Part shown: piece after piece, positions 34,562 to 46,188 of the stretch
How positions within the stretch are numbered: position 1 is the first letter of the stretch
Layout of the letters: each line of letters begins with the position of its first letter
NCBI GenBank assembly: GCA_902544525.1
Contig: CACCCN010000002.1
Coordinates: forward strand, 162,502-226,501
Length of the DNA stretch: 64,000 nt
Source of the DNA: an uncultured Pelagibacteraceae bacterium
GTDB taxonomy: Bacteria > Pseudomonadota > Alphaproteobacteria > Pelagibacterales > AG-422-B15
Direction: 5' to 3'
The notes under the pieces: generated by a model
Database searches by the model: none
What the model was told of the DNA's origin: nothing
Seen by the model: the letters and a program-made list of their open reading frames with translations, nothing else
Position numbers and translations under genes: made by a program

Positions 34562-36355
34562 ATGAGAGCTAAACAATATTTTATTATTTTTATCATTTGC
34601 CTGCTTAATATATCGGTTAAATCTTCAGAAATATCCGATGAAGTATCTCCTGAAATTTTTGATTCAATCTCAGTTGAAGCTAGTGCACTGGGTGTAGAAA
34701 CTTCACTTCAAAAAAAAATAAGTGGTTATCCTGTAATAGCAGATGAATGGATGATCGTAACAGCAAATGCTTATGCTTCTATTGCTGGAGCAGAAATATT
34801 AAAAGATGGTGGAACTGCTGCTGATGCAATGGTAGCCGCACAAACAGTGTTAGGACTTGTAGAGCCTGAGTCATCTGGTTTGGGTGGTGGAGGATTTTTG
34901 GTTTGGTATGACAGTAATACAAAACAAGTCACAACATTAGATGGCAGAGAAACAGCTCCATCAAGTTCACAAGTGTCTCAGTTTCAAAATAAAGACGGTG
35001 AATCTATGAAATTTTTTGAGGCTGTAATAGGTGGATTATCAGTAGGAACTCCTGGTATACCGGCTTTAATGTTTGAAGCGCATAAAAAATGGGGCAATAA
35101 GCAATGGGGGCAGCTTTTTGCCTATGGTATTGGTTTAAGTGAGAATGGATTTATGGTTTCTAATAAGTTAGCGTCTTCGATACAACGAGATCTCGAAAGA
35201 TTAAAAACTTTTCAAGCAACTCGTGATTATTTCATGCCTGGCAATTTGCCACTAAACAATGGTGATATGATTAAGAATCAAGATTATGGAGATACCTTAA
35301 AAAAAATTGCATCCTCTGGAATTGATGAATTTTATTTAGGTAATATTGCCGACGACATAATTGACACTGTAAAACATGCAAAAAATAATCCAGGTTATTT
35401 ACAAAAAGAAGATTTAAAAAACTATAAAGTTATTGAGAGAAAGCCAATTTGCATTAATTATAAAATCTATGATATTTGTGGTATGGGCCCGCCCTCATCT
35501 GGTGGAATAGCAGTTGCGCAAATATTTAAAATTTTAGAAAATTTTGATTTAGAAACACTCAATAATCTTGATCCAATTACTTGGCAAATTATTGGTGATA
35601 CAATGCAATTAGTTTTTGCCGATAGAGGTCTTTATCTGGCAGATAGTGATTTTGTAAATGTTCCCATAGAAGCATTGATAAATGCAGGCTATCTAAGAAA
35701 AAGAGCAGGTGAAATTAATCCAGGAACTAAAACTGAAAATATTTTGCCTGGAAAACCAGTTGATAATTTAGCAATAAATTTAGCCAGCGATACCTCAATT
35801 GAAATGCCTTCAACTACACACATTTCAATAGTTGACCAGTATGGAAATGCACTATCAATGACCTCTTCAGTAGAAAATGCGTTTGGCTCTAGATTGATGA
35901 CACAGCATGGTTTTTTACTCAATAATCAATTAACAGATTTTTCATTTCAGTATGAAAAGAATGGTAAATTAATTGCAAACAGACTTGAACCAGGCAAACG
36001 GCCTCGTTCTTCAATGTCACCTACAATCGTCCTTAAAGATAATGTACCAGTACTTGTAATAGGCTCACCTGGTGGCAGTAATATAATTGGTTTTGTGATT
36101 AATGCTATTATTGGATTTATTGAATGGGATATGAATGTACAAGAAATTGTTTCAATGCCACATGCAATAAATAAATGGGGTAAATATGAAATAGAGGATT
36201 CAAGTTATGCCTCCAACTTAAATCAAGCTCTATCAGATATGGGCTATGAAACCAAAATAAGAAAGTATTACTCTGGATTGAACGCAATTAGCATAGGTGA
36301 GAAGTTAAAAGGTGGCTCAGATCCACGAAGAGAGGGAATTGCACTTGGTGAATAA
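34562..36355 (+). CDS. ggt: Gamma-glutamyltranspeptidase
   Basis: 597 aa, secreted (signal peptide 'YFIIFIICLLNISVKSSE', about 6-24). The autocatalytic Thr that starts the small subunit is in 'PSTTHISIVDQYGNALSMTSS' (about residue 419), and 'GSPGGSNIIGFVINAI' forms the oxyanion/substrate loop. It hydrolyses or transfers the gamma-glutamyl group of glutathione and related peptides in the periplasm, giving access to external glutathione as a sulfur and nitrogen source. Followed 17 bp later by a GcvT/DmdA-like gene. Confidence 0.94.
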   Translation: MRAKQYFIIFIICLLNISVKSSEISDEVSPEIFDSISVEASALGVETSLQKKISGYPVIADEWMIVTANAYASIAGAEILKDGGTAADAMVAAQTVLGLVEPESSGLGGGGFLVWYDSNTKQVTTLDGRETAPSSSQVSQFQNKDGESMKFFEAVIGGLSVGTPGIPALMFEAHKKWGNKQWGQLFAYGIGLSENGFMVSNKLASSIQRDLERLKTFQATRDYFMPGNLPLNNGDMIKNQDYGDTLKKIASSGIDEFYLGNIADDIIDTVKHAKNNPGYLQKEDLKNYKVIERKPICINYKIYDICGMGPPSSGGIAVAQIFKILENFDLETLNNLDPITWQIIGDTMQLVFADRGLYLADSDFVNVPIEALINAGYLRKRAGEINPGTKTENILPGKPVDNLAINLASDTSIEMPSTTHISIVDQYGNALSMTSSVENAFGSRLMTQHGFLLNNQLTDFSFQYEKNGKLIANRLEPGKRPRSSMSPTIVLKDNVPVLVIGSPGGSNIIGFVINAIIGFIEWDMNVQEIVSMPHAINKWGKYEIEDSSYASNLNQALSDMGYETKIRKYYSGLNAISIGEKLKGGSDPRREGIALGE

Positions 36356-36372: not shown

Positions 36373-37557
36373 ATGACTGATCCAATCGATAAAAATTTTA
36401 AACAAGCATATCTTAGAGAAAATAAAGATGTAATTGCTAGGCATATAGAAGACAGTCCATTCATTAGTTTTTTAAATAGCGACAAAGTTATCAGGGGTAT
36501 TTATGCTGAGCGATATTTTCCCATTTCAGTTGATGAGAATATTATAGAAAAATACTGGCTGTTAAGACAAAAGGCAGCATTATTTGATGTCCCAGAAAAA
36601 CCAATTGAAATTACTGGCAAGGACTCTGAGAAATTTCTTGATTATATATTTTGTAGAGATTTAAGTGGGATAAAAATTGGCAGAGGGTTCTACTGCCTTG
36701 CATGTACTCCAAAAGGTGGCATCTTTATGGACGGTATATTATTCAAGCTTGAAACCGATAGATATTGGTATGTTCAAGCAGATGGTCAGTTTGAAACCTG
36801 GCTTTTAGCAAATAGTAATGGATTTAATGTTAACATATCGAATCCACATGTTTGGGTTTTACAAATACAAGGGCCTGCGTCTACTTCGGTGCTTAAAGAT
36901 GCATCTAATAATTCATTAGACGAGAGCTTTGGTTATTATAAATCTGATTTTTTTGACTTAGGTGGTCAAAAAATTTATGTTTCGAGAACTGGCTATACTA
37001 ATGAACTTGGTTATGAACTCTATTGTCCTTCTGATATTAATCATAAAGCCCTATGGGATCACTTAATGAAGTGTGGTGCTCCATATGGAATGGAATTTTC
37101 TTCAACTCGTGCCATGACTATGAGAAGAATCGAAGGTGGCATCAGAGAAAATCTTGTAGATATGGATACATCAGTTAATCCGTATGATGTTGGGCTGGGT
37201 CAATTTGTTAATCTTGATAAAGAAAATTTTATTGGCAAATCGTCACTAATAAACGCAAATAAAGAAAATAAACTCTTTGGGGTCATATGTAAAAAATCTG
37301 TACCTGAAGTTCATGCTAAAATAACAAAATCAGGAAAAGAAATAGGAAAAATAACATCTGGAGTTTTTTCACCTACTTTAAAATGTGGCATTGGGTTTTT
37401 GAGACTTAATTCTCCACTTAAAATTATTGGCGAAGAAGTTCAGATGATTTTGAGTGACGATTCAATAGAAAACTGTGAAGTGGTTGATTTACCATTTTTT
37501 GATCAGGAAAAAAAGATTGCTAGAGGTTTAGATACCACAATTCCAGACGTCAGTTAA
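36373..37557 (+). CDS. GcvT/DmdA-like tetrahydrofolate-dependent methyltransferase
   Basis: 394 aa. Blocks 'ITGKDSEKFLDYIFCRDLS', 'VLQIQGPAS', 'SRTGYTNELGYELYC' and 'CEVVDLPFF' follow the aminomethyltransferase/DMSP-demethylase fold, and the sequence resembles SAR11 DmdA in several of them. An N-terminal ~60-residue extension ('SPFISFLNSDKVIRGIYAER') differs. It probably transfers a one-carbon group from a methylated or aminomethylated substrate to THF; DMSP, glycine-betaine derivatives or dimethylglycine are possible. True DmdA identity is unproven. Co-oriented with ggt. Confidence 0.75.
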   Translation: MTDPIDKNFKQAYLRENKDVIARHIEDSPFISFLNSDKVIRGIYAERYFPISVDENIIEKYWLLRQKAALFDVPEKPIEITGKDSEKFLDYIFCRDLSGIKIGRGFYCLACTPKGGIFMDGILFKLETDRYWYVQADGQFETWLLANSNGFNVNISNPHVWVLQIQGPASTSVLKDASNNSLDESFGYYKSDFFDLGGQKIYVSRTGYTNELGYELYCPSDINHKALWDHLMKCGAPYGMEFSSTRAMTMRRIEGGIRENLVDMDTSVNPYDVGLGQFVNLDKENFIGKSSLINANKENKLFGVICKKSVPEVHAKITKSGKEIGKITSGVFSPTLKCGIGFLRLNSPLKIIGEEVQMILSDDSIENCEVVDLPFFDQEKKIARGLDTTIPDVS

Positions 37558-37684
37558 ACAAATATATCTCATTAAGCTGGTTCTTTAAACCATTGTGGAA
37601 AAGGGTCAGTCATTTTTTGATAACTTATTGTATAGTTAAAGTTCATACTGGCTAAATTTCAATAAATCATTATAAAATATATGT

Positions 37685-39976
37685 ATGAATATTGAGTATA
37701 AAGTTGAAAGATTTACAAAAGCCATCATATCAAACAAAATAAAAACACTTTTTGTAGCTTTAATTTTTATACTACTTGCTACGTCCGGTTTGCGTTTTTT
37801 AGAAACACCATCTGGATATAGATCTTTTGTTGAAAATGATCAGCCTAATTATCAAGATATTTTAAATATTGAGGAAAAATATGGAAATATTGATGTTCTT
37901 ACTTTCGTTATTAAGCCTAATGAGGGGGACATCTTTCAAAAAGATGCTTTGGATGTTATTAATCAATTAACTGAATTGTCCTGGAAATCTCCTTACTCAT
38001 CAAGAGTTAGCTCCTTGACAAATTATCAATATACTACGGTTGAAGGCGATGACATAAATATTAATGATTTTATTAATGATATTGATGCTTTAAACGATAA
38101 TGATTTACAAATTCTTAAAAAATTAGCATTACAAGAAAAAAATATAGTCAACTTCATATTATCTAAGAGTGCAAAGGTTAGTTTTGTAAATATTACGCTT
38201 GATATGCCAAATGATGTTGATTTTGTCGAACCTATTGCTTTTGCAGAAGAACAAAAAAAAATATTTAATGAAAAATATCCAAATATTTTTGTAACAGTTG
38301 CAGGCTCAGCGAGATTTTCACAAAATTTTCAAGAAACAGCACAAAGTGATGCTACTAATATGTATCCAGCATTTCTTGTTTTAATAATAGTACTATCTTA
38401 TTTACTTTTAAGATCTGTATTAGCATCATTACTATCATTAATAATTATATTTCTATCTATTTTGCCTTCAATGGGTTCTGCAGGATGGCTTGAATATCAG
38501 GTTTTACCTCCATTAATTATCGCTCCAATTGTAATTCTAACTATCGCATTAGCACATGCTATACACATTCTATCAATTGCACTTTCAAATATGAATGAAG
38601 GTATGCAAAAAGATGTGGCAATTATTGAAAGTATGAAAATAAATTTTATGCCAGTATTTTTGACAAGTTTTACCACTGGAGTTGGTGTCGCTGGAGTTAA
38701 TTTTGGTAATATTCCTGCTTTCAGTGAAATGGCTAATGCTGTTGTATTTGGTTCACTCTATAGTTTCTTGTTATCAATTACTGTTCTTCCAGCCCTATTC
38801 ATGATCATGCCAATAAAATCTAGCAAAAAAAATAATTTAATTTTGCCAGTTCTTCATGCACTTGGAAATTTAATTTTTAAATTTAAATATTATGTAATCG
38901 CAATTGTATCGCTAATAACTATATTTTTAGTGTCATTAATTCCTAGTTTGTATTTTGATGATGATTTTGATGCATACTTTGATCGTGTTGATGATTGGGT
39001 AGAAGTTAAAAATATTGTAAATGACGAATTTGGCAGCTCGTTCTTTATTTTTGCAAATATGGATTCTGGTGAAATAGATGGAATTACTGATCCTAACTAT
39101 CTTAATAAACTTGACGAATTTGCTAATTGGCTCGAAAGTCAAGATGAAGTTGTTACCGTATCAACAGTTGCAGATGTTATTAAAACACTTAATAAAAATA
39201 TGAATGCTGGATCTGAAGATTTTTATACAATACCAGATAGTAAGGCCTTAAACGCGCAATATTTTTTAATGTATGAGTTTTCGGTTCCTTACGGAATGGA
39301 TCTTAAAAATCAAATGACCGCCAATAAATCTCAGTCAAGATTACTCATCAGAATTAATAATGCCACATCAATTCAATCTAGGGCATTTCATCAAAGAACT
39401 AAGGAATGGATAGCTGATAATCTTGGATCATATGAATCAGATGGAATTGTCGGAATACCCGTCATGTTTCCCTATGTTTACCAAGAAAATACCCAAGGCC
39501 TCGTAAGGGGACTAATATTTTCTTTTGGCATAATAATTGTCGTAATTGGAGTGACGCTTAGAAGTGTTAGATTTGGTTTAATAAGTGTTGTGCCAAATGT
39601 TGTTCCGTTTCTTCTTGCCTATGGAGTGCTATCAATTTTCACAAAAGTTGTTACTTTCAGCCACACAGTAGCAATCTTAATCGCAATTGGTCTTGTCGTG
39701 GACGCAACTATTCATTTCTTAACAAAATTTAAAAAAGCAAACTCAATGAATTTATCTCCATACGATGCAATTCAATACTGCTATAAGTATGTCGGGTACC
39801 CGATTATAGTTGCTTCAGTTTGTTTATTTTCAGGTTTCTTATTTTTAATACAGTCAAGCTTCCAAACAAATTATGTTTTAGGTGGCATGTGTGCATTAAT
39901 TATTTTACTTGCATTAGTAATAGATTTATTATTACTTCCATCTCTTTTATTAATCTTTGGAAATAAATCACGATGA
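37685..39976 (+). CDS. RND/MMPL-family transporter
   Basis: 763 aa with twelve membrane segments in two repeats: TM1 near 20-40, TMs 2-6 near 225-375, TM7 near 400-425, TMs 8-12 near 610-755. Large periplasmic loops lie between TM1-2 and TM7-8. 'SIGxxVDATIHFLTKF'-like sequence ('AIGLVVDATIHFLTKFKK') is typical of MMPL/HpnN-type lipid transporters. The stop overlaps the start of the LolA-like gene by 4 bp, and the beta-barrel gene follows, so the three probably move a hydrophobic compound across the envelope. Confidence 0.85.
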   Translation: MNIEYKVERFTKAIISNKIKTLFVALIFILLATSGLRFLETPSGYRSFVENDQPNYQDILNIEEKYGNIDVLTFVIKPNEGDIFQKDALDVINQLTELSWKSPYSSRVSSLTNYQYTTVEGDDININDFINDIDALNDNDLQILKKLALQEKNIVNFILSKSAKVSFVNITLDMPNDVDFVEPIAFAEEQKKIFNEKYPNIFVTVAGSARFSQNFQETAQSDATNMYPAFLVLIIVLSYLLLRSVLASLLSLIIIFLSILPSMGSAGWLEYQVLPPLIIAPIVILTIALAHAIHILSIALSNMNEGMQKDVAIIESMKINFMPVFLTSFTTGVGVAGVNFGNIPAFSEMANAVVFGSLYSFLLSITVLPALFMIMPIKSSKKNNLILPVLHALGNLIFKFKYYVIAIVSLITIFLVSLIPSLYFDDDFDAYFDRVDDWVEVKNIVNDEFGSSFFIFANMDSGEIDGITDPNYLNKLDEFANWLESQDEVVTVSTVADVIKTLNKNMNAGSEDFYTIPDSKALNAQYFLMYEFSVPYGMDLKNQMTANKSQSRLLIRINNATSIQSRAFHQRTKEWIADNLGSYESDGIVGIPVMFPYVYQENTQGLVRGLIFSFGIIIVVIGVTLRSVRFGLISVVPNVVPFLLAYGVLSIFTKVVTFSHTVAILIAIGLVVDATIHFLTKFKKANSMNLSPYDAIQYCYKYVGYPIIVASVCLFSGFLFLIQSSFQTNYVLGGMCALIILLALVIDLLLLPSLLLIFGNKSR

Positions 39977-40761
39977 AATCTTATATTTTTTCATTTCTAA
40001 TCATAGTTATATGTAATGTACATACCTTTGCAATGTCAGATGAAGAAAAAGGACTCAAGATAGCTAAAGATGCCTATGATAGTACCCGAGGATATGTCGA
40101 TAGTACTTCTGAGCAAATAATGATTCTTATCGATCCAAAGGGTAATGAGGTAATTCGAGAAATCTCAGGTAAGAATTTTGAAAATATGGATCCGAATGAT
40201 GGTGATAAATCATTAATTTTTTTTAACAAACCTAAAGATGTTGAGGGTACAGTTATGCTGTCCCATACTCACGTCAATGATGATGATGATCAATGGCTTT
40301 ACTTGCCGGCGCTAGGAAGAGTCAAAAGAATTTCATCTAGTAACAAATCAGGGGCGTTTATGGGAAGTGAGATATCTTTTGAAGACTTCTCAGGCTTGGA
40401 TTACAGGAAATATGATTGGAAATATCTTGGTGAAGAAAATTATGAAAACGAAATTTGTTATAAATTAGAGTCTTATCCAAAATATAAAAATTCTGGCTAC
40501 ACAAAAAGAATTGGATTAACTGACCAATTGCTAAGAGCGCGAAAAATTGAATACTATGATAGAAAAGGAGATCTTTTAAAAACCATATATTTTGAGGATC
40601 ATAAACTTTATAATGAATCAATTTGGTTTGCCGACACTTTTAAAGTTGTAAATCATCAAAATGACAACATCACAATATATAAATGGGAAAATCGATTGCT
40701 AAATACAGGTCTTAATGAAAAAGATTTTGAAAAGTCTAGTTTAAGCCGCTTAACTGACTAA
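39973..40761 (+). CDS. Outer membrane lipoprotein-sorting (LolA-like, PF17131 type) protein
   Basis: 262 aa with signal peptide 'YIFSFLIIVICNVHTFA'. Core blocks 'DDDDQWLYLPALGRVKRI' and 'FMGSEISFEDFSGLDYRKYDWKYLG' are characteristic of the LolA-like family that accompanies MMPL transporters. It should be a periplasmic beta-clam carrying lipid or lipoprotein from the RND protein to the outer membrane. ATGA overlap with the RND gene; 2 bp before the next gene. Confidence 0.85.
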   Translation: MKSYIFSFLIIVICNVHTFAMSDEEKGLKIAKDAYDSTRGYVDSTSEQIMILIDPKGNEVIREISGKNFENMDPNDGDKSLIFFNKPKDVEGTVMLSHTHVNDDDDQWLYLPALGRVKRISSSNKSGAFMGSEISFEDFSGLDYRKYDWKYLGEENYENEICYKLESYPKYKNSGYTKRIGLTDQLLRARKIEYYDRKGDLLKTIYFEDHKLYNESIWFADTFKVVNHQNDNITIYKWENRLLNTGLNEKDFEKSSLSRLTD

Positions 40762-40763
40762 TT

Positions 40764-41957
40764 GTGATAAAAATCTCCGCTAAAAGTATATACTTATCTC
40801 TTATTGTTTATCTGATTTTAAATTCTTCTCCTATCCACGCTAGTGATTATAAAGCTTATGGCTTCATTCAACCAGAGATGTCAGTTTTTTTCAATGGCAA
40901 GGGTCGACATGGACAAAAAAATACCAATCTATCAATTTTTGGAAAAGGAACCTTTATTTCATATTTACAAAATGATGATGCAAAATTCTCAATTAATATC
41001 CTAGGACGTTATGATGATAATGATAGGGAGCTTAGGTACTTAGATTTTCAAAAGCTTAAATATGAGTATTTTTTTGATGATCTAGAATTTAAAATCGGCA
41101 ATGATATTATTTTTTGGGGTGTAAATGAGACATTCAATATTGTAGATATCGTCAACCAGTCAAATTTAGCAGAGGACTTAGCGGGAACAAAAAAACTTGG
41201 TCAAACTATGGCTTCATTATCTTACAGTCATGACTATGGTAAGTTCGATATTTATCTTATGTCTAATTTTCAAGAAAGATCATTTCCAGGAAAAAATGGC
41301 CGACCAAGGTTATCTATGGAAATTGATAAAAATACTGTGACTTATGAATCTTCAGCAAAAGATAAAAAGGTTGATTTTGCTATTAGATATTCAACTGTTC
41401 TTGATGATTTAGATTTTGGACTATCACATTTCTATGGAAACAATAGAGCGCCAGAATTAAAGCCTAACTCATCAACTTTAAAGTTTGATCCTCTTTATCC
41501 AATATTATCACAGACTGGATTAGACATACAATCAACTAAAGGTTCATGGCTTTATAAGCTTGAAAGCATAAGTGCTAAAAATGGAAATGAAAGACATTTT
41601 AGTGCTGCAGGTGGAATAGAGTACACTTTTTATGGAATCCAAAATACTCAAAGTGACCTTGGAATAATCATTGAATATATCTTTGATGATAGAAACAATA
41701 ATCCATTAAATAATGATGGAGTTTTAGGTCTCAGGTGGAATAGAAATGATATTAAATCAACAACCTTTTTAGCAGGTTTATTGATCGATTTAAGTGGAAA
41801 TTCTAATAGGCTACAGGCTGAATTTGAACAAAGGATTACCGATGATCTAAAGCTCTTTGTAGATTTTTCTCTTAATGGAAATATAAATCGAGCGGACTTT
41901 AGCTATCAATTTAAAGAAGATTCAAAAATAACTGTAAAGATTGCAAAGTATTTTTAA
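40764..41957 (+). CDS. Outer membrane beta-barrel protein (DUF1302/alginate-export-like)
   Basis: 397 aa starting at GTG (40764). The signal peptide 'IYLSLIVYLILNSSPIHA' is followed by a Ser/Asp/Tyr-rich beta-strand pattern; 'IFWGVNETFNIVDIVNQ' resembles the DUF1302 barrel motif 'WGxTxxxxxVDxxNP', and the protein ends in Phe (..KIAKYF), the Bam recognition signal. Likely an outer-membrane channel acting with the RND and LolA-like proteins. Downstream 41958-42061 contains no visible hairpin. Confidence 0.75.
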   Translation: MIKISAKSIYLSLIVYLILNSSPIHASDYKAYGFIQPEMSVFFNGKGRHGQKNTNLSIFGKGTFISYLQNDDAKFSINILGRYDDNDRELRYLDFQKLKYEYFFDDLEFKIGNDIIFWGVNETFNIVDIVNQSNLAEDLAGTKKLGQTMASLSYSHDYGKFDIYLMSNFQERSFPGKNGRPRLSMEIDKNTVTYESSAKDKKVDFAIRYSTVLDDLDFGLSHFYGNNRAPELKPNSSTLKFDPLYPILSQTGLDIQSTKGSWLYKLESISAKNGNERHFSAAGGIEYTFYGIQNTQSDLGIIIEYIFDDRNNNPLNNDGVLGLRWNRNDIKSTTFLAGLLIDLSGNSNRLQAEFEQRITDDLKLFVDFSLNGNINRADFSYQFKEDSKITVKIAKYF

Positions 41958-42061
41958 TTAAATTCTTTGTGACTTGAGGTTTAGTATAAAATAGGGAATT
42001 TAATTTCACGTTCTGTTGAAATAGACGCTGTAACTTTAAAGTGTTTCTATTAATTTATTTT

Positions 42062-42922
42062 TTATCTAATAAAAATATAATTAAATGACCTATCATATTT
42101 AGTGTTTCTAAACATCTGTTCATTATGTTTTTTGTGTAAAATTTTAAAATTATGTTTTTTCATTATTTGTATCAATTTAGTATACTGTTCAGTGAAGTTT
42201 TCATTTATTTCAATTGACAGACTTTTTATCTTTTGGTTACTTAAATATTTCATCGCACCCTCTAAAATAAGGTGTTCAATACCATCAACATCAATTTTGA
42301 TATAATCAGGTATCTCAAGTATGTGATTATCAAGTAAATAATTAATACTAGTACCAAGTAAGGTATAATTCATTTCAGATTGAAAATTTTTACCTTCGAA
42401 ATTAAAATTTTCACCAAATGAATTTAATGCGCTACCTTCAACAAATTGACCTTCTTTCATTGTAAAAAACTTATTTTCGACATTGGTAAGTGGAATTGGC
42501 ATTATTTTGATCTTTTTTTCAAATTTATTGATCGAAATATTTCTACTTAAAACTCTTAAATTTGAAGTGGAGGGTTCAAATGAAATTGTCTTAGAATTCT
42601 TGTGCTTTATTGCATTATAGATTGAATAAAGCCCAACATTAGCTCCAATATCCCAAAAAATTATTTCTTCATCGGTATTGAATGAATTAATCCATTCAAT
42701 TGTTTCTGGTTCTTTTGAAAAATAGCTATTTACTCTAAAATCAACAAGTTGATTAGGAACAAAAAAATTGATTTTTCTATCTAAAATTATTAACTCAGTA
42801 TAAGAATCATTTTCTAAAAATTCATTAAACCAAATTAATAGTTTTCTTTTTGTTACAAGAAAAAATATTTTATCAAAATAATATAGAGTTTTATAAAAAA
42901 AGCGACTTAGTTTTTTTATCAT
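42062..42922 (-). CDS. FkbM family methyltransferase
   Basis: 286 aa. The SAM motif is 'FWDIGANVGLYSIY' followed by 'ISFEPSTSNLRVLSRNI', with 'IDVDGIEHLILEGA' in the C-terminal half; all are FkbM signatures. These enzymes O-methylate sugars in polysaccharides or lipids. Third gene of a minus-strand operon with two unknown genes, probably glycan decoration. Confidence 0.9.
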   Translation of the reverse strand: MIKKLSRFFYKTLYYFDKIFFLVTKRKLLIWFNEFLENDSYTELIILDRKINFFVPNQLVDFRVNSYFSKEPETIEWINSFNTDEEIIFWDIGANVGLYSIYNAIKHKNSKTISFEPSTSNLRVLSRNISINKFEKKIKIMPIPLTNVENKFFTMKEGQFVEGSALNSFGENFNFEGKNFQSEMNYTLLGTSINYLLDNHILEIPDYIKIDVDGIEHLILEGAMKYLSNQKIKSLSIEINENFTEQYTKLIQIMKKHNFKILHKKHNEQMFRNTKYDRSFNYIFIR

Positions 42923-42925
42923 ATT

Positions 42926-43696
42926 TTAGCTATGATGAACGTCTAGATAATTATTTTTGTAACTAAAAACCGTTGGTCTCAAAAATAAACAATTAGATAT
43001 GATTGTTATAGTCTTTTTTACACCTATATCAATTAGCTTAGAACAACCAGCATTTAAAATATAGTGATTATTATCTAATGAAAATTTAATAATTTTTGTT
43101 GTTGGATTTGAAAAAAATAATTCATTTTTATCAAATCCTCCAAAATATTTTTGAATTCTGTAATGATTATTTTTAAATAAGGATGTTTTTACAAGATTAC
43201 TCTTTATTTTTCCATCGTAAGAGATTTTTGTTGATTTTGCCAACGTATTACCATGAACAAACGAATATAGATTTTGATTATGTGAATACCCAATATAACA
43301 ACGATTTGAAATTAAAACATCTTCTTCAATATTTTCTTCAGAGAAATGATGAATATAAAATACACCATAACTTTCTATTCCATTTAAATAATCTGAGTTT
43401 ATTTCTATTTCATTTGAGAGATCTAAATTATAATATTTCTTTTTTTTGATTAATTTATTTTCCTTTGAAAAAAAATGAATTTCTATCCATGAATCTTTAA
43501 CCTTATAAAAAATATTTAAAATATCCGAATATTTAAATATTGTTGTAAAATTGTTATCAGTTCTCCACGCAAACGCATCGCTTATGGATGAAGCTTCAAA
43601 TGTTCTTGTAGATATAGGAACAGGTCTAAATTTAAGAGAATTTCTGAGTGTGATCCCAATGCTAGATAAAGTAATATTTTTAACTAATGATTTCAT
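42926..43696 (-). CDS. Hypothetical protein in the FkbM operon
   Basis: 256 aa, no signal peptide or membrane segment. The sequence is beta-rich with many aromatic residues ('SYGVFYIHHFSEENIEED', 'CYIGYSHNQNLYSFVHGN'). I do not recognise it. It overlaps the preceding gene by 17 bp and is 3 bp from the FkbM gene, so it acts in the same process, probably modification of a surface glycan. Confidence 0.7.
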   Translation of the reverse strand: MKSLVKNITLSSIGITLRNSLKFRPVPISTRTFEASSISDAFAWRTDNNFTTIFKYSDILNIFYKVKDSWIEIHFFSKENKLIKKKKYYNLDLSNEIEINSDYLNGIESYGVFYIHHFSEENIEEDVLISNRCYIGYSHNQNLYSFVHGNTLAKSTKISYDGKIKSNLVKTSLFKNNHYRIQKYFGGFDKNELFFSNPTTKIIKFSLDNNHYILNAGCSKLIDIGVKKTITIISNCLFLRPTVFSYKNNYLDVHHS

Positions 43697-44444
43697 TAAT
43701 TTCTCTTTTTAACTCAGCTACTTTTGTAAATTTATTTTCACTAAATATATACTCATGAGGTGGGTGAGTATGCTCAAATGAAAGATGTTGATTTTTTACT
43801 GAAGCATATATTGGAATTCCAAGATAGTCTTTGGTAACTAAAAAAATTTCTGGTTTAATTAACTCTCGATCAAGCTCGATGCAGTTTGTATAATTTGTTT
43901 TAATTTGAAATTTTTCTTCTATATGTTTTGTTTTTATATTTACTAAATAGGCATCAAAATAATCTATTATTGGTTTCTCATATATGTTCTTTATAAATAT
44001 AAAATTTTTATCTGCATTCTTATTTCCTAGAGAGCATACAGAACTCAATATAGTGCCTTTTTTAGAAATCATAGAATATGGATATTCAGATTGATAAGAT
44101 GAGAAACCAGCATTTTCATGCATAAATATTTTTAAATTTGCTCGATAACTAGGAGATGTATCAGTAAAATTATTAAAGTTTTTAAGCTTCAACTTATCAT
44201 AATTAAATAGTTCCTCTGGATGTGCTAAAAAGTAAATCTCATTATTGGTATTTTTGTTACAATTGATGTAATAAAATTCAGGTGCTTCTTCTATTTTTTC
44301 AATTTTTTCAATAATCCAACAATCATTTTTTGGCCAACATTTATATAAATTTATTGTTTTTGATGTCACACCATTATTTTGAAAAGTTGGTATTTGAATT
44401 TCAGAGTCGAAAAGCTCGTTTTTTATGTTAAAGAAATAATTCAT
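43680..44444 (-). CDS. Hypothetical protein, first gene of the FkbM operon
   Basis: 254 aa, soluble. Notable stretches: 'ANLKIFMHENAGFSSYQSEYP', 'STLG'-less 'GTILSSVCSLGNK', and a His-rich 'LSFEHTHPPHEYIF' near the C terminus that could bind metal. No family recognised. It shares length, aromatic content and position with the next gene, but convincing homology between them is not visible by eye. No promoter motif is clear upstream. Confidence 0.7.
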   Translation of the reverse strand: MNYFFNIKNELFDSEIQIPTFQNNGVTSKTINLYKCWPKNDCWIIEKIEKIEEAPEFYYINCNKNTNNEIYFLAHPEELFNYDKLKLKNFNNFTDTSPSYRANLKIFMHENAGFSSYQSEYPYSMISKKGTILSSVCSLGNKNADKNFIFIKNIYEKPIIDYFDAYLVNIKTKHIEEKFQIKTNYTNCIELDRELIKPEIFLVTKDYLGIPIYASVKNQHLSFEHTHPPHEYIFSENKFTKVAELKREINEIIS

Positions 44445-44548: not shown

Positions 44549-44586
44549 GAACCCTCGATACGGTCACCCGCATACACGCTTTCCAA
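44549..44586 (-). other. Displaced tRNA-Ser fragment (copy 1)
   Basis: 38 bp identical to tRNA-Ser positions 46119-46156 (variable arm through the anticodon loop), in the same orientation. The T arm and acceptor end that should follow are eroded. Interpreted as the oldest attachment-site scar. Confidence 0.8.
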
Positions 44587-44668
44587 TTCATGAGTCCGAG
44601 ATTAGAGGATAATATTTTCCTATAAATGGGGGAATAAATCAGAGGAAGTATTTAATTTAATTTGGTTA

Positions 44669-44742: not shown

Positions 44743-44801
44743 TGGCGGAAAGGATGGGATTCGAACCCACGATACGGTCACCCGCATACACGCTTTCCAA
44801 G
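44743..44801 (-). other. Displaced tRNA-Ser 3' half (copy 2, attachment-site scar)
   Basis: 59 bp matching the 3' portion of tRNA-Ser(GGA) from the anticodon stem to CCA, with two substitutions. The substitutions fall opposite each other in the T stem and keep base pairing. Beyond the anticodon arm, similarity is lost. This is the expected by-product when a tyrosine recombinase element integrates at the anticodon loop and restores the tRNA with its own 3' half. Confidence 0.85.
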
Positions 44802-44875
44802 CTGTCGCCACTAACAACGATCCTTGATTATCCCATAGTATATATACGTTACCGAGCATGTGAATCTTTATTTAG

Positions 44876-44894
44876 TGTGGAAGAATTGTGGAAG
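44876..44894. repeat. Doublet repeat TGTGGAA-n4-TGTGGAA (possible integrase arm site)
   Basis: Two TGTGGAA units at an 11-bp period, 75 bp inside the cassette from tRNA copy 2. 17 of 19 bases match the doublet at 46024. The stretch 44895-45057 also holds GAGTC/GACTC repeats, including the palindrome GACTCTGAGTC (44945-44955), and no gene. Confidence 0.65.
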
Positions 44895-45057
44895 TCATGT
44901 TCCATAAAAAGTGAATCAGATTCCACGTAGAGTCATCAAACTTGGACTCTGAGTCACATAAACTATTTTAGACTCCCTACCTACCCTGAGCCACGATGCA
45001 TGAATCCTGACACTGATTTAATTGAGATAGATGTAGTGAGGGTATATTTAGTTTACT

Positions 45058-45438
45058 CTAATAACTTGTTATAGTTAATTGCTTCATCTTAATTATTATA
45101 CACTTATTGAAATGATGAATTTGATGATTTTTTTTCTTTATTTCCCACTCTTCGTCTGAAGAAACAATAGGTCTGTTCAAGTACTCAAAAGAATTTTCGT
45201 CCAAGGCTTTTGGGTATTTACTTAAGTAGGCTTCTCTCTCTGCTATCTTTAATTGTCTTTTCTCTAAACCATCTGTAAACCAATCTGGATAAGGCTCTTT
45301 ATAGATTTCATCATAGCAAATATTTTTAGCTAAACGAATTTTTGCTGTATTAGTCCAGTAGTAAATAAACCCTAAAGTTAGAAGAGTTGTACAAACGAAT
45401 ACAATACTTAAATTCAATTTATGTTTCATTAGGCTCAT
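45058..45438 (-). CDS. Small single-pass membrane protein, cassette cargo (paralogue A)
   Basis: About 126 aa. N-terminal anchor 'LNLSIVFVCTTLLTLGFIYYW', then 'TNTAKIRLAKNICYDE' and a ~95-residue polar domain, probably periplasmic, with a second Cys near the C terminus. It is clearly related to the 45607-45975 product over the anchor and the first Cys. The start is ambiguous: GTG 45441 (track), ATG 45438 (overlaps the upstream stop as TGATG, preferred), or ATG 45429 (best match to the paralogue). Family unknown. Confidence 0.65.
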   Translation of the reverse strand: MSLMKHKLNLSIVFVCTTLLTLGFIYYWTNTAKIRLAKNICYDEIYKEPYPDWFTDGLEKRQLKIAEREAYLSKYPKALDENSFEYLNRPIVSSDEEWEIKKKNHQIHHFNKCIIIKMKQLTITSY

Positions 45439-45584
45439 CACCAGCTAGTTTTATCTGCACAATGTAGTTTATCTATACGGCTATCTACTTCTCTCATACA
45501 GTCTTGATACGGGGAAAAGATATAAAAAAATATACAGACAAGAATAAAGATTAATCCTATGTAAATAAATGGTCTGTTGTTCAT
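45438..45584 (-). CDS. Tiny single-pass membrane protein (48 aa), cassette cargo
   Basis: Missed by the track. MNNRPFIYIGLIFILVCIFF begins a single hydrophobic anchor. It is followed by a short tail with two Cys ('YQDCMREVDSRIDKLHCADKTSW'). The stop TGA overlaps the ATG of paralogue A. It looks like a shortened member of the same style: anchor, aromatic boundary, then Cys-bearing tail. Function unknown. Confidence 0.55.
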   Translation of the reverse strand: MNNRPFIYIGLIFILVCIFFYIFSPYQDCMREVDSRIDKLHCADKTSW

Positions 45585-45606
45585 ACTATTATTTAAATTT
45601 TATGCT

Positions 45607-45975
45607 TCACTTGATGGCTGTTAGGCATTCTATATAATTAGTTTCAGCTTTATTAATCATTTTTAATTCATGCTCTTCTTTGCTTACATTAACTCTTTCG
45701 TAAGAACAGTAGTTAAAATTTGAGTCTTTTGGATCTTCTAAGTCCACAAATAATCTACATGTATCCCAACTCGCCTTATTCATTAAATCACATTCTACAT
45801 ATCTTGTGCTACATTTTTTATATCTAGCATCTAATCTTTCAATCTTATTTTTTGTTTCAACTTCACAATATTGCTTTGCCACTCTTAAATCTGATGAGTT
45901 TGACCAATATAAAACAAAGGTAACAATTAGGACTGTTACACAGATAATAACCAAATTAATATTCACCTTACTCAT
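45607..45975 (-). CDS. Small single-pass membrane protein, cassette cargo (paralogue B)
   Basis: 122 aa. Anchor 'INLVIICVTVLIVTFVLYW', then 'SNSSDLRVAKQYCEVETKNK' and a polar, Cys-rich region (7 Cys after the anchor) that suggests disulfides in the periplasm. It aligns with paralogue A: YWSNSSDLRVAKQYC versus YWTNTAKIRLAKNIC, and a shared VS..E.E.K..N pattern near the C terminus. First gene of the three-gene cassette. Confidence 0.7.
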   Translation of the reverse strand: MSKVNINLVIICVTVLIVTFVLYWSNSSDLRVAKQYCEVETKNKIERLDARYKKCSTRYVECDLMNKASWDTCRLFVDLEDPKDSNFNYCSYERVNVSKEEHELKMINKAETNYIECLTAIK

Positions 45976-46023
45976 ATTAAACCTTAGCTCACGATCTACG
46001 ATTCAGCAAAAGTTTAGAATGAA

Positions 46024-46042
46024 TGTGGAAAGATTGTGGAAG
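46024..46042. repeat. Doublet repeat TGTGGAA-n4-TGTGGAA near intact tRNA-Ser
   Basis: Two TGTGGAA units at an 11-bp period, starting 75 bp before the 3' end of tRNA-Ser. That is the same distance and orientation as the TTTGGAT doublet before tRNA copy 2. Confidence 0.65.
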
Positions 46043-46098
46043 ATTAGCACTTTCCAACCAATTTGTTGGGAACGTTGTATATAGTTTTTGACTCTAGT

Positions 46099-46188
46099 TG
46101 GCGGAAAGGAAGGGATTCGAACCCTCGATACGGTCACCCGCATACACGCTTTCCAAGCGTGCGCCTTCAACCACTCGGCCACCTTTCC
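46099..46188 (-). tRNA. tRNA-Ser (GGA)
   Basis: 90-nt class II cloverleaf on the minus strand: acceptor GGAAAGG/CCTTTCC, anticodon loop TTGGAAA giving anticodon GGA, long variable arm, T loop TTCGAAT, then G and encoded CCA. It lies 7 bp downstream of lepA and is the apparent integration target for the adjacent cassette. Confidence 0.98.

Follow-up and report, generated by a model that had tools for sequence, protein, structure and literature searches.

Three small genes lie in a row on the minus strand of the window, the 64,000-nucleotide stretch of Pelagibacteraceae DNA analysed here. An earlier note, made from the letters alone, had taken them for the cargo of a genomic island, coding for an unknown family of tiny membrane-anchored, cysteine-bearing proteins. 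What kind of island carries such genes, how they came to this place, and what the proteins may do there are the questions raised by this locus.

The operon and the element that carries it

The three genes are the following.

45607..45975, minus strand: cargo gene 1 (P0001), 122-aa anchored Cys protein (ORF call, paralogue alignment)
45438..45584, minus strand: cargo gene 2 (P0003), 48-aa anchored Cys protein (similar layout only)
45058..45438, minus strand: cargo gene 3 (P0002), 126-aa anchored Cys protein, paralogue of gene 1 (ORF call, alignment)

The presence of three consecutive minus-strand genes at 45058-45975, coding for proteins of 48-126 aa with an N-terminal anchor and a polar Cys tail, was confirmed at the ORF level. 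The length of P0002 is counted from an ATG, and an alternative GTG start is found at 45441. A spacer of 22 nt separates gene 1 from gene 2, and gene 3 overlaps gene 2 at TGATG, so that the genes of P0001, P0002 and P0003 form one operon. One of them had been said to be overlooked by the ORF track; this is the gene of P0003, which at 48 aa falls under the 60-aa cut-off and would therefore be missed.

In each of the three proteins, one hydrophobic stretch at the N terminus precedes a polar, Cys-containing tail. Their description as built alike therefore holds for the layout, but not for descent in the case of P0003, for which no tool detected homology to the P0001/P0002 family, and which lacks W24. 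P0001 and P0002, on the other hand, are clear paralogues over the anchor and the first Cys, as had been noticed (BLASTP in a single comparison: 40% identity and 77% positives over residues 3-37, E = 7e-11). In a whole-genome scan, a P0001 query retrieved P0002 at E = 7e-6.

The operon is bordered by an intact tRNA-Ser gene, recognised by ARAGORN, and by two copies of the tRNA 3′ half located downstream, which bears out its assignment to an island. The elements of this locus are listed below.

46099..46188, minus strand: intact tRNA-Ser (anticodon GGA), the site of integration, with a 3′ half that came from the insert (ARAGORN)
46024..46042, minus strand: left-end paired repeat CTTCCACAATCTTTCCACA, putative arm-type site (repeat comparison)
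44876..44894, minus strand: right-end paired repeat CTTCCACAATTCTTCCACA, matching the left pair (repeat comparison)
44743..44802, minus strand: displaced tRNA-Ser 3′ half, the attachment site at the far end of the youngest element (60 nt, 97%)
44587..44640, minus strand: canonical right end of tRNA-Ser elements ATTATCCTCTAATCTCGGACTCATGAA, remnant of an earlier element beside the older fragment (motif match)
44549..44586 (about), minus strand: second, older tRNA-Ser 3′ fragment (38 nt, 100%)
36373..44444, no strand given: remaining accessory island, with glycine-cleavage-T-like, MMPL-like and outer-membrane genes and an FkbM methyltransferase

The youngest element spans 44743-46098, about 1356 bp. 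Its only genes are the three anchored Cys genes, no integrase was found within it, and its right end is of a subtype other than that of most such elements. The T-arm pair of the intact tRNA is GAGGG/CCCTT, whereas the family-typical GTGGG/CCCAT is kept in the displaced copy, as predicted if the insertion replaced the 3′ half of the gene. In genome G005, of the same genus, the tRNA-Ser directly abuts the gamma-glutamyltransferase gene, whose end corresponds to position 36355 of the window, and about 9.7 kb of the window are accessory by this comparison. The 1.36-kb element is the youngest layer of this stacked accessory island. The glycine-cleavage-T-like gene at 36373-37557, which adjoins the gamma-glutamyltransferase gene, has a close homologue among the cargo of a tRNA-Ser cassette in genome G003 (L057:8832-10013), which suggests that older mobile layers are present in the window island. 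The window genome (G000) is a 1.26-Mb assembly, 87% complete.

Related cassettes at tRNA-Ser and livG

Copies of the tRNA-Ser 3′ half, with E values down to 1e-30, were found 0.6-3 kb downstream of the gene in 11 of the 53 genomes of the family, all of them drafts, one per species. One to four cargo genes lie between the tRNA and the copy. They code for small secreted proteins, a T5orf172 protein, methyltransferase-like and glycine-cleavage-T-like proteins, or pilins. The pilin arrays, found in G026 and G027 (L059:1689-3319, L061:71-2201), are made of 3-4 type IV pilins that share an almost identical N-terminal helix and diverge in their Cys-containing tails, and seven sister-cassette proteins match PF07963, the prepilin methylation motif. 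No integrase was found in any tRNA-Ser cassette, nor in any of the livG cassettes described below.

In most tRNA-Ser cassettes the right ends can be aligned over some 100 nt, and they fall into two or three subtypes. Across 397 genomes of the order, the right-end motif of the main subtype was found only beside tRNA-Ser fragments of this family, and backward controls gave zero matches. Empty and filled sites with matching flanks were found in two pairs of genomes (G001 empty and G003 filled, G020 empty and G010 filled). Clear left repeats are absent from the elements of G004 and G045, and the left end of the first element of G026 is cut by the contig end. The G004 cassette is doubtful, as its cupredoxin and cytochrome c genes are also present in the tRNA-Ser region of G007, where there is no fragment.

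Among 347 genomes of the order, other homologues of the P0001 family were found only in G043 (AG-461-F16) and G044 (AG-917-N15), in both cases just after livG. The far end of these insertions repeats the livG 3′ end, and paired repeats are again present. Copies of the livG 3′ end were detected 0.8-4.6 kb downstream in 18 of 35 livG loci, with empty sites among the others, and G036/G041 provide a pair of empty versus filled sites. The P0001 family is thus carried by a tRNA-Ser cassette in G000 and by livG cassettes in G043 and G044, which makes two genera and two targets. We checked whether the homologues are ordinary chromosomal genes in conserved, non-mobile contexts, the outcome that the earlier note had named as fatal to the cargo reading. 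All four family members found in the 347 genomes lie inside integrated cassettes, from which the family would always be mobile cargo. A second, unrelated cargo gene is also shared by both targets (G003 at tRNA-Ser and G020 at livG, 95% identity over 247 nt). The livG locus of G049 (L162) has a different end type, with AAGCGCCTA...AGGTCG repeats placed 3040 and 4009 nt after livG and an autotransporter as cargo; these ends are a further end family at the livG target.

Predicted role of the anchored Cys proteins

The four members of the family (P0001, P0002, P0004 and P0005) share a TM anchor, the motif YW.N..D.R....C and a C-terminal Cys. Residues N5, Y23, W24, R31, C37, E100, E101 and C117 (P0001 numbering) are invariant in their alignment, in which a conserved anchor contrasts with a divergent outer part (20-31% overall identity). 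Two further profile matches were rejected as members, one in G044:C12, out of frame over a FabG/ACP locus, the other in G020:C9, inside a longer, unrelated ORF of outer-membrane type.

P0001, P0002 and P0003 had no significant match in Pfam, NCBIfam and PADLOC, and the family gave sub-significant matches only with PHROGs and PDB sequences. One of these, EspA (PDB sequence match, E = 0.003), was discarded, the match being weak, coiled-coil-like and without fold support. A structure prediction, which had been proposed from the start, was run with AlphaFold2 from the four sequences. It returned a helical model (pLDDT 77, pTM 0.53), with a long N-terminal helix (6-63) and returning helices that include a C-terminal one (99-121), and Foldseek found no match to its fold in PDB and BFVD. 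The family therefore keeps the status of unknown that it had been given, with no match in Pfam, NCBIfam, PADLOC or PDB folds, and as far as these comparisons go the anchored Cys proteins constitute a previously undescribed family. Of the two conserved Cys, one is just outside the membrane and the other near the C terminus, which suggests an N-in/C-out orientation and a disulphide. We infer that the proteins are most likely periplasmic alpha-helical hairpins, anchored in the inner membrane and closed by a C37-C117 disulphide.

N-terminal hydrophobic segments, as in exported proteins, were found in 33 of 52 cargo proteins of both cassette types, compared to 12 of 50 background ORFs of the window (P = 7e-5); this enrichment is conservative, since evident signal peptides are present in several proteins scored as negative. 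The likely site of action is the envelope. The anchored Cys proteins, with their conserved anchor and fast-diverging outer part, would act there, plausibly against phage entry, and phage exclusion or surface variation is a possible role for them, as predicted from their layout, the cargo class and a shallow four-sequence model.

The earlier note had suggested superinfection exclusion, a modifier of cell-surface receptors or an inhibitor, roles that stay conjectural for these proteins. Two more specific proposals can be weighed. The first is that the anchored Cys proteins are superinfection-exclusion proteins of a phage or a satellite, blocking DNA entry at the inner membrane. Small exclusion proteins are alike in size, single anchor, periplasmic tail and phage-linked carriage, a resemblance that concerns layout only, and the cargo class is that of envelope proteins. 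However, the anchored Cys proteins have no sequence or fold match among known defence or exclusion families, nor to any phage, plasmid or viral protein, and no homologue was found in phage, plasmid and IMG/VR sequences. Moreover, the same cassettes carry pilins, a porin, autotransporters and enzymes, so that a role at the envelope need not be exclusion. We regard this first proposal as rather unlikely. The second, that the proteins are variable subunits of an envelope structure such as a pilus-like or tail-like surface fibre, draws on the pilin cassettes of G026 and G027, each with 3-4 pilins of constant N-helix and divergent Cys tails: like the type IV pilins of these sister cassettes, the window proteins combine a constant anchor with a variable Cys-bearing tail. 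Unlike them, P0001, P0002 and P0003 lack a class III prepilin signal (neither a G/FTLIE motif nor a match to the Pfam N_methyl family, PF07963), and there are only two paralogues per locus, which makes this second proposal unlikely.

Probable movement of the cassettes

In an automatic longest-common-substring test, left and right paired repeats agreed more within than between elements. Permutations gave 0/20000 for tRNA-Ser and 15/20000 for livG, figures that are approximate because of the shared descent of cassettes. Agreement within an element is to be expected where a single recombinase recognises the two ends. A second sign of movement comes from a cargo gene coding for a secreted, arylsulfotransferase-like protein of 420 aa, which is 97.8-100% identical at the DNA level in 12 species-level genomes, in which livG identity goes down to 75%. 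This is a striking case of recent spread across species. It lies in a recognised cassette in 10 of the 12 genomes, the far livG copy being not found in G014 and G029.

livG loci L153, L154, L156, L160, L165, L168, L171, L180, L181 and L182: arylsulfotransferase-like gene

No excision product or circular form of a cassette was seen.

The explanation that we consider probable is that of a system of integrase-less cassettes with envelope cargo, moved in trans by phage-type integrases. The operon would be the entire cargo of a 1.36-kb integrative cassette, devoid of integrase, inserted in the tRNA-Ser(GGA) of a Pelagibacterales genome. A cassette would consist of two ends, made of paired arm-type repeats and of an attachment core copied from the 3′ end of the target, placed around 1 to about 8 genes. 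At least two targets would be used, the tRNA-Ser and livG 3′ ends, and the cargo, mostly related to the envelope, would pass between cassettes of different sites. At least some cassettes would owe their movement to tyrosine integrases that phage-type elements with the same ends supply in trans. Cassette structure, empty and filled sites, the two targets, the sharing of cargo, the recent spread across species and the sharing of livG-type ends with an integrase element are all read from sequence comparison.

Alternatively, the cassettes may be deletion remnants of a larger integrase-bearing island (prophage, ICE or tycheposon) that decayed at the tRNA-Ser, with nothing still mobile. SAR11 genomes are streamlined, and the older fragment at 44549-44586 together with the stacked 9.7-kb island do speak of repeated insertion and decay. 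Decay is nevertheless hard to reconcile with the retention of both ends and their matching repeats in many independent small elements, with the same compact design in independent elements at two sites, with the same ends around unrelated cargo, and with a livG cassette gene 97.8-100% identical across divergent hosts. We find this alternative improbable. More improbable still is a spread of variants through homologous recombination in the conserved genes on either side, with the tRNA and livG copies as mere scars of ancient insertions: this mechanism was put forward for replacement islands of marine bacteria (PMC4033161) and for the phosphate islands of HIMB59 (PMC10734472), but livG, down to 75% identical in the hosts of the 97.8-100% identical gene, would be a poor substrate, the right ends stay conserved whatever the cargo and the flanks, and the same cargo is found at two different sites.

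A cassette system without integrases of its own needs a recombinase from elsewhere. Three cassette-bearing genomes, G045 (100% complete), G050 (99%) and G027 (93%), have only two Xer-sized matches each to PF00589 (tyrosine recombinase). From their size, their copy number and their presence in nearly all genomes, these two would be XerC and XerD. Some genomes are incomplete, and a resident integrase may be missing from their assemblies. Serine recombinases were rejected as cassette movers, being absent in 19 of 20 genomes.

A candidate helper was found on contig C19 of G003, which encodes a 519-aa integrase, P0006 (PF00589 1e-23; PHROG integrase 7e-41), distantly related to the integrases of known temperate phages, among them pelagiphages HTVC021P and HTVC048P. 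The start of P0006 is 48 nt from a right end that is 71% identical over 169 nt to the right ends of livG cassettes, contains the repeat GGTCGGGCCTAAGTCGTGTACGTACT and ends in the livG core. Unknown genes and then a family A DNA polymerase follow P0006 (L117:6370-13120), and the element, cut by the contig end, is probably a temperate phage. A phage attachment site commonly adjoins the integrase gene. As the cassette ends match those of an integrase-bearing, phage-like element, such an element would be the simplest source of recombinase in trans. The arrangement of an integrase gene adjoining an attachment end homologous to a cassette end was found for the livG type only. No integrase-bearing element with tRNA-Ser ends was present in the genomes, IMG/VR or phage records, and the helper step for the window element therefore rests on analogy with the livG type. 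Searches for a phage carrying the tRNA-Ser core returned only ordinary phage tRNA-Ser genes, which were discarded. We infer mobilisation in trans, by the same mode for the tRNA-Ser type.

By its architecture, the window element is of a known kind, the tRNA-targeted cassettes of additive genomic islands: it has a 60-nt copy of the tRNA at 97%, filled and empty site pairs, and the G005 junction. Such cassettes in additive flexible islands are described for ‘Candidatus Actinomarinales’ (PMC7771536), for Methylophilaceae, where fGI-2 lies at tRNA-Lys (PMC10872708), and for Alteromonas (PMC4119200); the Actinomarinales report finds no identifiable mobile elements (PMC7771536). The common traits are a small size, a location at tRNA genes, a directly repeated 3′ part of the tRNA, a variable cargo and streamlined marine hosts. 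The Pelagibacterales cassettes differ, as far as these reports were consulted, by defined ends whose paired repeats correspond within each element, by a protein-gene target, livG, by cargo common to both targets and by a candidate helper integrase of phage type that has the same end.

Tycheposons are also tRNA-targeted cargo elements of marine bacteria, but are described as 4-200 kb long with a tyrosine recombinase (PMC10872708), whereas the Pelagibacterales cassettes measure about 0.7-4.6 kb and have no recombinase; the window element, at 1.36 kb, falls outside that class. A dependence on phages for movement, suggested here, recalls phage satellites (PICMI/PICI). PICMI satellites encode an integrase, AlpA and a primase (PMC10803314), but no cassette carries an integrase, an AlpA-like regulator or a primase, which sets the window element apart from satellites as well. 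CALINs, integron cassette arrays devoid of integrase (PMC11389934), are an example of hitcher elements without an integrase, and are likewise cargo units dependent on an integrase in trans. Integron cassettes are recognised by their attC sites; the present cassettes would differ from CALINs by ends derived from tRNA or livG 3′ sequences with paired direct repeats, by the absence of an integron integrase and by usually one cassette per site.

In the open-access literature subset searched, no published description of such a cassette set in Pelagibacterales, or of the livG target, was found. A broader reading, which we hold tentatively and at a little less than an even chance, is that Pelagibacterales possess a system resembling integrons in function but unrelated to them, in which recombinase-free, two-ended cassettes with several targets freely exchange envelope cargo by means of temperate-phage integrases. 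The phages would thereby spread genes by which their own attachment and entry may be altered or blocked, and the anchored Cys proteins would be one of several dedicated cargo families. Bacteria of the SAR11 order count among the planet's most abundant cells, and are known for streamlined genomes with few mobile elements. Recombinase-free envelope cassettes that borrow phage integrases would explain the exchange of surface genes in these genomes. The cassette set provides ends, targets and a candidate enzyme that can be tested, and the anchored Cys family a defined, mobile and phage-linked candidate for functional work.

Other integrase loci, in G004 (by tRNA-Lys), G038 (with tRNA-Gly nearby) and G014, were set aside as helpers, neither end type being present there. 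The integrase gene of G004, a genome of the same genus, adjoins tRNA-Lys and is followed by phage-like genes (L118:6649-7826), possibly forming another tRNA-targeted element. The G014 locus (L120:6434-14844) is a satellite-like element, with an integrase that has an arm-binding domain and an AEP-TOTE primase/DUF5906 protein. It also encodes a small protein ending in RATWGWLDY, which resembles one ending in RPTWGWLDY in the livG cassette of G011.
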